40,964 nucleotides of DNA from Deltaproteobacteria bacterium (GTDB lineage: Bacteria > Myxococcota_A > Polyangia > Polyangiales > Polyangiaceae): positions 1 through 40,964 of the forward strand of contig VGRJ01000033.1 in assembly GCA_016875405.1 (NCBI GenBank), in the 5' to 3' direction. Below are positions 8,908 through 15,988 of this stretch, piece after piece (within the stretch, counting starts at the first letter, position 1; the number at the start of each line of letters is the position of its first letter). The notes under the pieces were generated by a model. That model was not told the DNA's origin. It was given only the letters and a program-made list of their open reading frames with translations, and did no database searches. The position numbers and the translations under genes were made by a program.

Positions 8908-8921
8908 GGGGCGGGCCTCAG
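8904..8921. terminator. Hairpin shared by two convergent genes
   Basis: CTGAGG (8904-8909) and CCTCAG (8916-8921) form a perfect 6-bp stem with a 6-base loop. The stem contains the stop codon of the gamma-glutamyltransferase on the plus strand and that of SMUG1 on the minus strand. There is no T-run on either side, so it may be a weak or factor-assisted bidirectional terminator. Confidence 0.35.
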
Positions 8922-9682
8922 AGCAGGCTCACGCCGCTCGCGACGAGATCGGCCTCGGCGGCGCCCGCCCAGTCGCGATTGGCGCGCGGGCTCGCGGGGC
9001 TCGGGTGCAGCATGCGCCCGAAGGCAACGCCCGTCCCGTCGAGCGCGCGCCGTGCCGCGGCCTCGGCGAAGGCTCCGACGCCGACGACCAGCGAAGGGGC
9101 GAGCGCGCGGGCCATGCCGCGGAGGGCGTCGTCGCAGCGGTCGAGCAAGGGCTCACGGTCGGCCGCGCACAGCTTGTCGGGCGTCAAGTTTCGCCCGGAC
9201 GCCTCGAGGAACGCGAGCGGGCAGTAGTTCAGGACGAAGAACCTCTCGAAGAAGCGCTCCGCGGAACCGAAGCGTGAGCGCGCCCAGCCCCAAAAGCGCG
9301 TGCCGCTCACCTCGGAACGCGCGCAGTCAAAGCCGAGCACCGGACGCTTTGGATGCTCGCGGGCTGGACGCTTCACGGGGGCCGAAACGCCGAGAAAGTC
9401 GCGCGCCATCGCGACGTCGCCGAACGGGACGCCGCACTGAGCCATGCCGAATGGCCCAGGGTTCATCCCGAGGAGCAACACGTCGCGCGTGCCGGATCCC
9501 CATTTTTCGAGGTACGCGCGATGCGGCTCCCAAGCGTAGGCGAGCGGGTTGTAGACGTAAGCGACGGGCGGGCGGAACTCGAGCCGGTCGAGATCCTTCG
9601 ACAGGTCGCGCGCGATCGAGACGAGCGACGGTGGGGTGGTCGACGTGCGTGGCACGGCAACGAGGTCGCAGAGCGCGCACAC
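8918..9682 (-). CDS. SMUG1-type uracil-DNA glycosylase (UDG family 3)
   Basis: 254 residues, similar in length to animal SMUG1. It removes uracil and oxidised pyrimidines from DNA in base excision repair. The family signatures are unusually clear: VYNPLAYAWEPH (about 43-54), motif A GMNPGPFGMAQCGVPFGD (72-89) with the Asn that positions water, and motif B HPSPASPRAN (from about 226) with the catalytic-loop His. SMUG1 is common in animals and patchy in bacteria. The GTG start at 9682-9680 is the longest option and gives a Cys-containing N-terminus (MCALCD), so the true start may lie some residues further in. It is divergent from the peroxiredoxin gene across about 60 bases, which places two oxidative-damage genes head to head. 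Confidence 0.92.
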   Translation of the reverse strand: MCALCDLVAVPRTSTTPPSLVSIARDLSKDLDRLEFRPPVAYVYNPLAYAWEPHRAYLEKWGSGTRDVLLLGMNPGPFGMAQCGVPFGDVAMARDFLGVSAPVKRPAREHPKRPVLGFDCARSEVSGTRFWGWARSRFGSAERFFERFFVLNYCPLAFLEASGRNLTPDKLCAADREPLLDRCDDALRGMARALAPSLVVGVGAFAEAAARRALDGTGVAFGRMLHPSPASPRANRDWAGAAEADLVASGVSLL

Positions 9683-9742: not shown

Positions 9743-10429
9743 ATGGCGAAGCTCGAAGCAAGTGACCAAGCACCGGCGTTCGCGCTGGAAGGAAACGACG
9801 GGCGCGTGCATTCCTTGGCGGACGCGCGTGGTGGCGCGCTGGTCCTCTATTTTTACCCAAAGGACGACACCCCTGGCTGCACCATCGAGGCGTGCGACTT
9901 TCGGGACCACCTCTCGCGGCTCACGGCGACCGGCGCCGCGGTGCTCGGCGTCTCCAAGGACTCGCTCGCGAGCCACGCGAAGTTCCGCGACAAGTACGGC
10001 CTGACCTTCCCGCTCCTCAGCGATCCCGACGCGAAGGTGCACGAGGCCTACGGCGCCTGGGGCGAGAAGCTCTTCTACGGCAAGAAGATCGTCGGGGTGA
10101 TTCGCTCGACCTTCGTCATCGACGCGCGCGGCATCGTCACCCACGCTTGGTACGGCGTGAAGGCGAAGGGACATGTCGAGCAGGTCTTGGCGGCGCTCCT
10201 CGGCGACGCGAACGACGCCCCCGTCGCGAGGAAGGCTGCCGCCGCGAAGAAGACGACGAGCGCGAAGAAGCCCGCAGCCACGAAGAAGACGACGAGCGCG
10301 AAGAAGCCCGCAGCCGCGAAGAAGACGACGAGCGCGAAGAAGCCCGCAGCCGCGAAGAAGACGACGAGCGCGAAGAAGCCCGCAGCCGCGAAGAAGACGA
10401 CGAGCGCGAAGAAGGCCTCCGGTCGTTGA
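9743..10429 (+). CDS. bcp: Bcp/PrxQ-type peroxiredoxin with a histone-H1-like Lys/Ala tail
   Basis: 228 residues. Residues 1 to about 160 form a complete Bcp-type peroxiredoxin that reduces hydroperoxides with thioredoxin as likely donor. DTPGCTIEACDFRD carries the peroxidatic Cys46 and resolving Cys51, and later blocks include FPLLSDPD and STFVIDARG. From residue 163 the protein changes to a basic tail of five 12-residue units of the type KKTTSAKKPAAA, encoded by 36-bp direct repeats. Such tails occur in bacterial H1-like proteins and usually bind DNA or RNA, so the enzyme may be held on the nucleoid; that is inference. A near-perfect ribosome binding site precedes the ATG. The NUDIX gene begins within three bases of the stop, so the two are probably co-translated. 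Confidence 0.93.
   Translation: MAKLEASDQAPAFALEGNDGRVHSLADARGGALVLYFYPKDDTPGCTIEACDFRDHLSRLTATGAAVLGVSKDSLASHAKFRDKYGLTFPLLSDPDAKVHEAYGAWGEKLFYGKKIVGVIRSTFVIDARGIVTHAWYGVKAKGHVEQVLAALLGDANDAPVARKAAAAKKTTSAKKPAATKKTTSAKKPAAAKKTTSAKKPAAAKKTTSAKKPAAAKKTTSAKKASGR
10247..10414 (+). repeat. 36-bp tandem repeat encoding the peroxiredoxin tail
   Basis: Units begin at 10247, 10283, 10319, 10355 and 10391 with a period of 36 bases. The last copy is shortened to 24 bases. Copies are nearly identical at the DNA level, including third positions; one copy has a Thr codon where the others have Ala. The period is a multiple of three, so gain or loss of a unit changes tail length by 12 residues without a frameshift. 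Confidence 0.9.
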
Positions 10430-10431
10430 CC

Positions 10432-11100
10432 GTGCCCGCGACGGCCGGCGCCGTTGAGCGACTCGCGTCGCCGAGCGCGCTCGAGGCACACCTCGCCACA
10501 CACCCACGGGTGGAGTTCCCCGCCCTGCCCGGTCGACGGAACCACCTCCGTGCCGGCGTGCTCGTCCCGCTCCTCTGGGACCCCGAGCCGCGCTGTCTCC
10601 TGACGGTGCGCGCGGGTGGCCTCAAGCACCACGCGGGCGAGGTCTGCTTCCCCGGCGGCCGCCCCGACGCGACCGATCGCGACCTCGAGCACACCGCGCT
10701 CCGCGAGGCACGCGAAGAGCTCGGGCTCGAACAGGCTCGAGTGCTCGGCGCGCTCTCGAGCGTTCCCCTCTACACCTCCGACTTCCGGCTGCATCCCTAC
10801 GTCGCCGAGGTGCCACGGCAGCCGCTCGTGGCGAGCCCCGACGAGGTGGCCGAGATCCTCGAGTTGCCCCTCCTACCGTGGATTGAGCGGGAGGCGATCG
10901 ACGCGATCGCGTGGGAGGCGGGCGAGCTGCGAGGCCTCTCGCCGGTGTTCACGCTCGGGACGCAGCGCATGTACGGCGCGACGGCGCACTCCTTCTACGA
11001 GCTCCTCTGCGTCGTCGCGAGTGCGAGCGGCCTCGAGCCGCCTCCGCTCGTCGCGTGCGCGCTCCGCTGGTCGGACGTGCTGCCTCGCGACGCGTCGTAA
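10432..11100 (+). CDS. NUDIX hydrolase, CoA diphosphatase type (NudL/NUDT7-like)
   Basis: 222 residues from the GTG at 10432. The CoA-pyrophosphatase signature is present: LLTVRAGGLKHHAGEVCFPGG (given here only as landmarks: LLTVR, HHAGEV, FPGG) about residues 50-70, followed by the NUDIX box ending in REAREELGL. The likely reaction splits CoA or acyl-CoA into 3',5'-ADP and phosphopantetheine derivatives with Mg2+. The GTG lies two bases after the peroxiredoxin stop; a TTG at 10426 overlapping that stop (TTGA) is an alternative that adds two residues. The coupling suggests both deal with damaged or oxidised metabolites, which is inference. The reading frame continues upstream through the repeat in the neighbouring gene, but that part is not protein-like for this family. 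Confidence 0.88.
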   Translation: MPATAGAVERLASPSALEAHLATHPRVEFPALPGRRNHLRAGVLVPLLWDPEPRCLLTVRAGGLKHHAGEVCFPGGRPDATDRDLEHTALREAREELGLEQARVLGALSSVPLYTSDFRLHPYVAEVPRQPLVASPDEVAEILELPLLPWIEREAIDAIAWEAGELRGLSPVFTLGTQRMYGATAHSFYELLCVVASASGLEPPPLVACALRWSDVLPRDAS

Positions 11101-15172: not shown

Positions 15173-15988
15173 ATGAAACCCGCGCACCTGCTTCTCGCGT
15201 CCGGCATCGTCGCCGTCTGCGCCGCCTCGGCGTTCAGCTGCTCGAGCACTCCGAACACCGGCGATGAGCTCACCGTCACGTTCTCCGCGCAGAGCGCGGT
15301 CACGGTCGGCACGGGCGGTGCGGGCGGTGCGGGCGGTGCGGGCGGTGCGGGCGGTGCGGGCGGTGCGGGCGGTGCAGGAGGCTCGATGGGGATGGGCGGC
15401 ATGGGCCCTGCGAGCTCGTCATCCATGACGGCGTCCTCGAGCGCGTCGAGCGGCGCTGGGGGCGAGGGCGGCAGCGACCCGGTGCCCGTCGAGACGCCGG
15501 TGCACGGATGCCTGTTCGCGGACGCCTACGACCTCACCGGAGGCGGGCCGGCGGTCGTGCTCTCCCTGTCCGCGGTGACGAAGAAGTACTCTGCGACGAT
15601 CAACGGCGCGTCCTTCGAGATCCCGTGGCCGATGTGCGTGAAGATCAAGTTCAACCAGCGCTTGGTCGTTGGCGGTCCGGGCACGAAGAGCGACGCCAAC
15701 GGGACCAACCCGCTGGTCGTAGGCGGCAGCGTCGACAAGGACGGAATCGCCGTCTACGACAAGAAGAGCCCGATCCAGCCGAACTGCTACAGCGCGGGTG
15801 TGAACAGCTTCGACCCGAACGCGACGAATTGCTACAACGGCGGCTCATGGCCTTGCGGCCACCCGAGCGCGAGCACCGCCGGCCAGTGCACCCAAGACTC
15901 GCAGAAGTCGTTCGTCATCAAGGCCTACCCCTTCTACGACAACGGCCTGAAGGACCTGCGCAAGGGTGCGCTCTACATCGTGCCCTGA
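15173..15988 (+). CDS. Predicted lipoprotein with Ala-Gly-Gly repeat linker, function unknown
   Basis: 271 residues. The signal peptide ends in SAFSC (Cys23), a plausible lipobox, followed by SST. Residues about 47-105 are a flexible linker: seven Ala-Gly-Gly units, then Met/Gly and Ser-rich segments. The C-terminal domain (about 110-271) begins with PVHGCLFADAYDLTGG, has several strands and four or more Cys (such as NCYSAG, NCYNGG, PCGH and QCTQDS) that could form disulfides outside the cytoplasm, and ends KGALYIVP. I do not recognise the domain. The linker style is typical of myxobacterial surface lipoproteins. A second lipoprotein gene starts 40 bases downstream on the same strand and is probably co-transcribed. 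Confidence 0.85.
   Translation: MKPAHLLLASGIVAVCAASAFSCSSTPNTGDELTVTFSAQSAVTVGTGGAGGAGGAGGAGGAGGAGGAGGSMGMGGMGPASSSSMTASSSASSGAGGEGGSDPVPVETPVHGCLFADAYDLTGGGPAVVLSLSAVTKKYSATINGASFEIPWPMCVKIKFNQRLVVGGPGTKSDANGTNPLVVGGSVDKDGIAVYDKKSPIQPNCYSAGVNSFDPNATNCYNGGSWPCGHPSASTAGQCTQDSQKSFVIKAYPFYDNGLKDLRKGALYIVP
15311..15382 (+). repeat. 9-bp tandem repeat coding for Ala-Gly-Gly
   Basis: Six perfect copies of GCGGGCGGT run from 15320 to 15373, flanked by one diverged copy on each side (15311-15319 and 15374-15382). The period keeps the frame, so copy-number change would alter only the linker length of the lipoprotein. Confidence 0.92.

Follow-up and report, generated by a model that had tools for sequence, protein, structure and literature searches.

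A histone-H1-like tail built from short repeats recurs on Bcp peroxiredoxins and may tether them to nucleic acid

The window, by which we mean the whole 40,964-nucleotide stretch of DNA analysed, is contig C33 of a 5.0 Mb genome. Its forward strand carries a complete bcp open reading frame (9743-10429; ATG start, 228 amino acids) predicted to encode a thioredoxin-dependent thiol peroxidase of the PrxQ/Bcp type that ends in a basic C-terminal tail. The first-pass annotation had recognised a complete Bcp enzyme here, which is borne out by PF00578 (AhpC-TSA domain; 133.6 bits for a cut-off of 26, E 4.6e-39), by NCBIfam PRK09437.1 (141.9 bits for a cut-off of 140) and by Bcp relatives in the PDB. 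Head to head with bcp, as had been noticed earlier, the reverse strand holds the gene of a SMUG1-type uracil-DNA glycosylase (8918-9682), whose best PDB match is Geobacter SMUG1 (5.2e-87) and which, taking its longest reading frame, is separated from the start of bcp by 60 bp. A NUDIX hydrolase gene (10432-11100, forward strand), weakly CoA-pyrophosphatase-like at a score below the cut-off for that assignment, starts 2 bp past the bcp stop and is likely to be co-transcribed with bcp; by tblastn it is found near bcp in genomes G000 and G001 and not near the tailless Bcp of G004. The promoter scan found no promoter at the window, and four terminator-like matches are the 36-bp repeat described below, read on the opposite strand.

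The folded core comprises residues 1-156 (9743-10210, forward strand), as delimited by AlphaFold, alignment and charge count, and has a net charge of -1. In the AlphaFold model, built from a 31-sequence alignment, block pLDDT values are 87-98 up to residue 150 and the last helix spans residues 144-156. The peroxidatic motif PxxxTxxC is present as PKDDTPGCTIEAC, with the resolving cysteine five residues downstream; Cys46 and Cys51 both fall within TPGCTIEAC. Both cysteines are invariant in the 31 aligned sequences (the window protein and 30 chosen among 80 named loci), a figure to be read knowing that the 80 named loci were retrieved with peptide patterns, one of which contained Cys51.

Beyond the core, residues 157-228 (10211-10426, forward strand) form a tail of 72 amino acids that is predicted to be disordered: block pLDDT drops to 46-57 from residue 161 and secondary structure is absent after residue 156. 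With 21 lysines, two arginines and a single acidic residue, the tail has a net charge of +22. Most of it is encoded by five 36-bp units (10244-10423, forward strand) that specify [A/T]KKTTSAKKPAA, the last unit diverging after 27 bp. Unit 1 (10244-10279) and units 3 and 4 (10316-10351 and 10352-10387) are identical over 36 bp and read AKKTTSAKKPAA; unit 2 (10280-10315), TKKTTSAKKPAA, departs from them at a single base, and the first 27 bp of unit 5 (10388-10423), AKKTTSAKKASG, are again the same. Five 12-residue units from nearly identical 36-bp repeats had been proposed from the first look at the sequence, and the array is indeed there, although it starts at 10244 and not at 10247, a trivial shift. 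Tandem Repeats Finder (TRF) reports 10225-10414 with period 36, 5.3 copies, 96 % matches and a score of 345; in 50 Markov-1 simulations of the window the highest score reached 77, which rules out a chance repeat. The tail type, likewise, is that of nucleic-acid-binding proteins, as had been suggested: C-terminal, disordered, rich in lysine, alanine and proline, made of repeats and histone-H1-like. Elsewhere in the window, TRF also detects seven perfect 9-bp repeats at 15312-15375 (CGGGCGGTG), one frame of which would encode a Gly/Ala-rich run.

The recurrence of such tails was surveyed with the Bcp core, stripped of its tail, as query. The core matched 58 of 59 relatives (E up to 0.001) and, within the class, 253 of 317 genomes (E up to 1e-30). 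One Bcp locus was taken from each of 173 genomes among the matches listed, namely 56 of the 58 relatives (the weakly matching G002 and G003 being left aside) and the listed best class matches except G219 and G223, and each match was prolonged to its stop codon so that the C-terminus beyond position 152 could be read. Under a lax rule (at least 18 residues beyond position 152 with at least 15 % Lys plus Arg), 41 of the 173 class orthologues are tailed, with tails of 20-151 residues, two of which (L170 and L260) reach contig ends, and net charges of +2 to +63. Absence of the tail from related Bcps and of the repeat from other assemblies had been named as evidence against the first interpretation; these counts show instead that the tail recurs. 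The remaining 132 Bcps, including one from the genus of the window, are untailed; six of the 173, all untailed, score below 125 bits and are possible paralogues. Not a single extension of at least 18 residues with less than 15 % Lys plus Arg occurs among the 173, the longest uncounted extension being 15 residues. Tailed Bcps are found in families f1 (26/73), f6 (4/8), f22 (9/22), f29 (1/15) and f16 (1/1) and in none of the 54 from other families; 24 of 92 genera have at least one, and four genera are mixed. A strict rule (last 25 residues with at least five Lys and at most two of ILMFWYCHND) is passed by 34 of the 173 class Bcps and, among the best 80 named Bcps of other lineages in the matches listed, by three, which come from metagenome-assembled genomes (MAGs) of Archangium (L081), Lysobacteraceae (L133) and Planctomycetota (L143).

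The 41 class tails consist of 35 % Ala, 25 % Lys, 14 % Pro and 4 % Arg; lysine makes up 25.6 % of tails compared with 7.8 % of cores and 0.4-2.3 % of four other proteins of the window. The longest Bcp tail, that of L191 in genome G083, has 151 residues, a net charge of +63 and about 20 units of 15 bp. The earlier description of the enzyme as two-Cys is right for the window protein (Cys46/Cys51) but does not extend to tailed Bcps at large: the resolving cysteine of GCTxEAC, the only position covered by this count, occurs in 4 of the 41 tailed class Bcps (missing from 37) and in 45 of the 126 untailed ones (missing from 81), kinship being uncorrected. The window Bcp is therefore atypical, and the tail trait may follow a Bcp sub-lineage or subtype.

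Is the tail specific to Bcp or a general habit of the genomes that bear it? Basic tails were found in none of 30 TrxA proteins (best match in each of 30 tail-bearing genomes), none of 30 Fe-SOD loci (28 tail-bearing genomes, with two second copies and one partial), none of 30 HU proteins (best HU in each of 30 tail-bearing genomes) and none of 20 Bcp-like paralogues from eight tail-bearing genomes, one of which has an Ala/Pro tail that is non-basic. Two of 540 background open reading frames, obtained with a crude gene caller from five tail-bearing genomes (400 kb) and the window's own genome (400 kb), pass the strict rule, one of them marginally. Nominal Fisher p values under this rule are 1.7e-8 for 34/173 against the controls (0/110), 3.4e-20 against the background and 0.027 against the Bcp-like paralogues alone; they serve as guides only, because related genomes are non-independent. 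A general tail habit is thus not seen in the four control families or in the background. HU, which had been included as a basic-tailed positive control, failed in this role; by eye, 19 of the 30 HU proteins (among loci L425-L445, e.g., L437, L441 and L445) have acidic, Asp/Glu-rich ends, the opposite of mycobacterial HupB.

Tail history was followed on a tree of the core alone with 247 rows (167 class and 80 named sequences, the six weak rows being omitted). Tail presence requires 17 changes on this tree, 16 on the FastTree version and 15-21 over 25 bootstraps; shuffled tail labels need a mean of 41 and a minimum of 36 (200 shuffles). With about 15-21 changes against a shuffled mean of 41, the tail is therefore inherited yet often switching, on a tree that is rough, as short-protein trees are, that leaves gain and loss indistinguishable and that allows for gene transfer. 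Within the genus of the window, 76 (G000), 23 (G001) or 5 (G004) residues follow position 152, so that the length change that had been suggested among strains is seen here between species. Best-scoring repeat periods vary among genomes from 11 to 60 bp, and in nine of 44 tails TRF detects no repeat, the composition being kept nonetheless; five of these nine are shorter than 30 residues, a size at which TRF has low power. Taken at the level of the sequences, these data support the view that tail composition is retained while the repeats are rebuilt. The other two forward frames of the tails would give an Arg/Pro-rich, basic product (46 % Arg) and an Arg/Glu/Gly-rich one; since one alternative frame is also basic, a basic product is in itself no proof of selection. 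A copy of the window tail from another gene of its genome was considered and set aside, as a DNA search revealed no near-identical stretch among the 40 of 142 candidates that were scored, a sample that makes the evidence weak. The search did return nine other Lys-rich stretches of 71-82 % identity, and the corresponding protein search two weak matches. Of the 55 plasmid records matched, none covers 80 % of the query.

Other Lys-rich proteins of tail-bearing genomes were sampled with a codon pattern for KK[APTS]3KK, whose backward control gave no match. The window's own spacing is not matched by this pattern, and its matches for this reason represent a sample rather than a full count. The window's own genome has 15 sites at six places: the C-terminus of topoisomerase I, two tiny H1-like reading frames, an unknown protein of about 154 residues and two secreted-looking or low-complexity proteins. 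Genomes G303 and G281 contain 33 sites, three of them without a locus; the matches lie in tiny H1-like reading frames, receiver domains with HC2-like tails, an OmpA protein, a lipoprotein-like protein and unknowns, and in G281 also in Bcp itself. From the DNA search of the own genome come, in addition, a ribosomal protein L25 with a Lys-rich tail (L040), a repeat-rich reading frame (L037) and one cut by a contig end (L036). Several of these deserve mention in their own right. The topoisomerase I of the own genome (L378, contig C2) has a Lys-rich C-terminal tail, as in actinobacteria. Single-receiver response regulators of two genera (L395 in G303 and L411 in G281) end in a long H1-like, HC2-like C-terminal tail that matches HC2 at or below its cut-off. 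Very small H1-like reading frames (L373 and L380 in the own genome, L389 and L392) consist mostly of Lys/Ala/Pro repeats and have no Pfam match. A TfoX-like reading of L405 and L406 was dropped as Pfam gives it no support.

We consider it somewhat probable that the window Bcp is a cytoplasmic peroxidase whose H1-like tail acts as an electrostatic tether to nucleic acid, most likely DNA. A flexible and strongly cationic tail would contact the phosphate backbone independently of sequence, the most likely partner being chromosomal DNA, and the tethered enzyme would remove peroxides beside the nucleoid and thus protect DNA locally. Selection would then act on charge and flexibility rather than on the exact sequence, which would allow the tail to be rebuilt from varied short repeats and to be often gained or lost. 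An electrostatic tether is favoured because composition is kept while repeats are rebuilt, because the controls are 0/110 and because lysine amounts to 25.6 % of tails versus 7.8 % of cores. Against it count the KK-rich proteins that are not DNA-related (the OmpA protein, the secreted-looking ones and unknowns), the best HU, which lacks a basic tail in 30 of 30 tail-bearing genomes, the tailless state of most Bcps (132/173, one of them in the window's genus), the basic alternative frame and the lack of the GCTxEAC resolving cysteine in 37 of 41 tailed class Bcps. The SMUG1 neighbour had been taken as support for local protection of DNA; this argument fails, because adjacency of bcp and SMUG1 is seen at 3 of 253 loci, all in the window's own genus, and one of the three Bcps (G004, L007) is tailless. 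In the flanks covered, at most 1.5 kb for class loci and 5 kb for named loci, no SMUG1 gene was found near tailed Bcps of other genera, and the pair is thus not conserved together with the tail.

The same tail would attract RNA, ribosomes, polyphosphate or acidic membranes. A cationic anchor for a polyanion other than DNA (RNA, ribosomes, polyphosphate granules or acidic membrane lipids), with protection local to that structure and not to DNA, is a less likely explanation that nonetheless deserves weight: the own-genome ribosomal protein L25 ends Lys-rich, and AlgP, whose tail is similar, is associated with granules of polyphosphate (PMC9239181), but the same tail type is found on the own-genome topoisomerase I and tiny H1-like reading frames, and some Bcps are reported to be DNA-binding (PMC8945050). 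The patchy distribution of the tail, its fast turnover, the near-identical units of the window, the tailless G004 of the same genus, the four genera with both states and the basic Arg/Pro-rich alternative frame would all suit a near-neutral expansion of repeats in the 3'-terminal part of an extension-tolerant gene, without function or serving solubility only. We regard this as rather improbable, given that every class extension of at least 18 residues has at least 15 % Lys plus Arg, that lysine is preferred over arginine (25 % versus 4 % of tail letters), that the third forward frame is Arg/Glu/Gly-rich, that composition is kept in the nine of 44 tails in which no DNA repeat is detected and that TrxA, SOD, HU and Bcp-like paralogues have no such tail (0/110). 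Finally, the tail could tune the enzyme and not its location, by recruiting thioredoxin or clients or by offsetting core charge. Tailed Bcps have the lower core net charge (mean 2.4 versus 4.2, nominal p 0.002, kinship uncorrected), but the difference is non-significant within family f1 (p 0.20), and we think such tuning very unlikely.

One may tentatively go further and propose that Bcp has repeatedly become chromatin-bound by means of a cheap H1-like tail, several times in the class, in parallel to the nuclear yeast Dot5; tails are present also in the one MAG each of Archangium, Lysobacteraceae and Planctomycetota. Local peroxide removal at DNA would in this case be a selected trait, switched on and off via repeat expansion, and tailed Bcps would clearly exemplify how a disordered tail can evolve convergently on an enzyme. 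Bcp and the H1-like tail are each known, and their recurring and rebuilt combination was not found in the literature searched: among the matches listed, the titles and abstract openings of the openly accessible literature contain no Lys-rich tail on a Bcp. Whether antioxidant enzymes need to sit near DNA is hard to test with a diffuse enzyme. Pairs of closely related orthologues, one tailed and the other tailless, occur naturally (for example L048/L051 with a core identity of 0.83, L006/L007 with 0.82), and the need for DNA proximity therefore becomes directly testable.

The PrxQ/Bcp structures (PDB 5enu, 3gkn, 5iiz and others) share with the window protein the sequence family, the peroxidatic motif and the Cys46/Cys51 spacing, but the 21 matched PDB sequences (153-179 residues, and one fusion of 322) cover the core only, alignments ending at or before query residue 156. 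Yeast Dot5 has a basic N-terminal extension. Dot5 (nTpx, 2a4v) is matched by the window Bcp (phmmer, E 3e-12) and differs from it in being eukaryotic and nuclear; it is described as a nuclear atypical 2-Cys peroxiredoxin that contributes in a minor way to genome stability (PMC2688748). Tailed Bcps would also bear on reports of DNA binding by Bcp. According to PMC8945050, which cites Hicks 2010 and Lee 2016, some Bcps bind and protect DNA in vitro, and an archaeal 1-Cys peroxiredoxin likewise protects DNA (PMC4416765). The Coxiella burnetii Bcp (Hicks 2010) is reported to be a DNA-binding peroxiredoxin, whereas the window Bcp is a putative one; the simplest reading would be that a DNA association already present in some Bcps is reinforced by the tail.

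Chlamydial Hc2 is a histone-like protein that is not known to have an enzymatic domain. It shares with the window Bcp its Lys-rich repeats, which are of variable copy number in Hc2 (PMC2848022). HupB, Streptomyces TopA and AlgP share a Lys-rich, H1-like and repeat-built C-terminal tail with the window Bcp: the HupB tail is required for nucleoid association (PMC5676037), the Lys repeats of actinobacterial TopA are tied to processivity (PMC7398561), and KPAA-repeat peptides bind DNA while the AlgP tail is needed for positioning polyphosphate granules (PMC9239181). In these accounts, the tails of HupB and TopA sit on DNA-acting proteins and AlgP is DNA-binding and granule-associated, whereas the window tail sits on a peroxidase.
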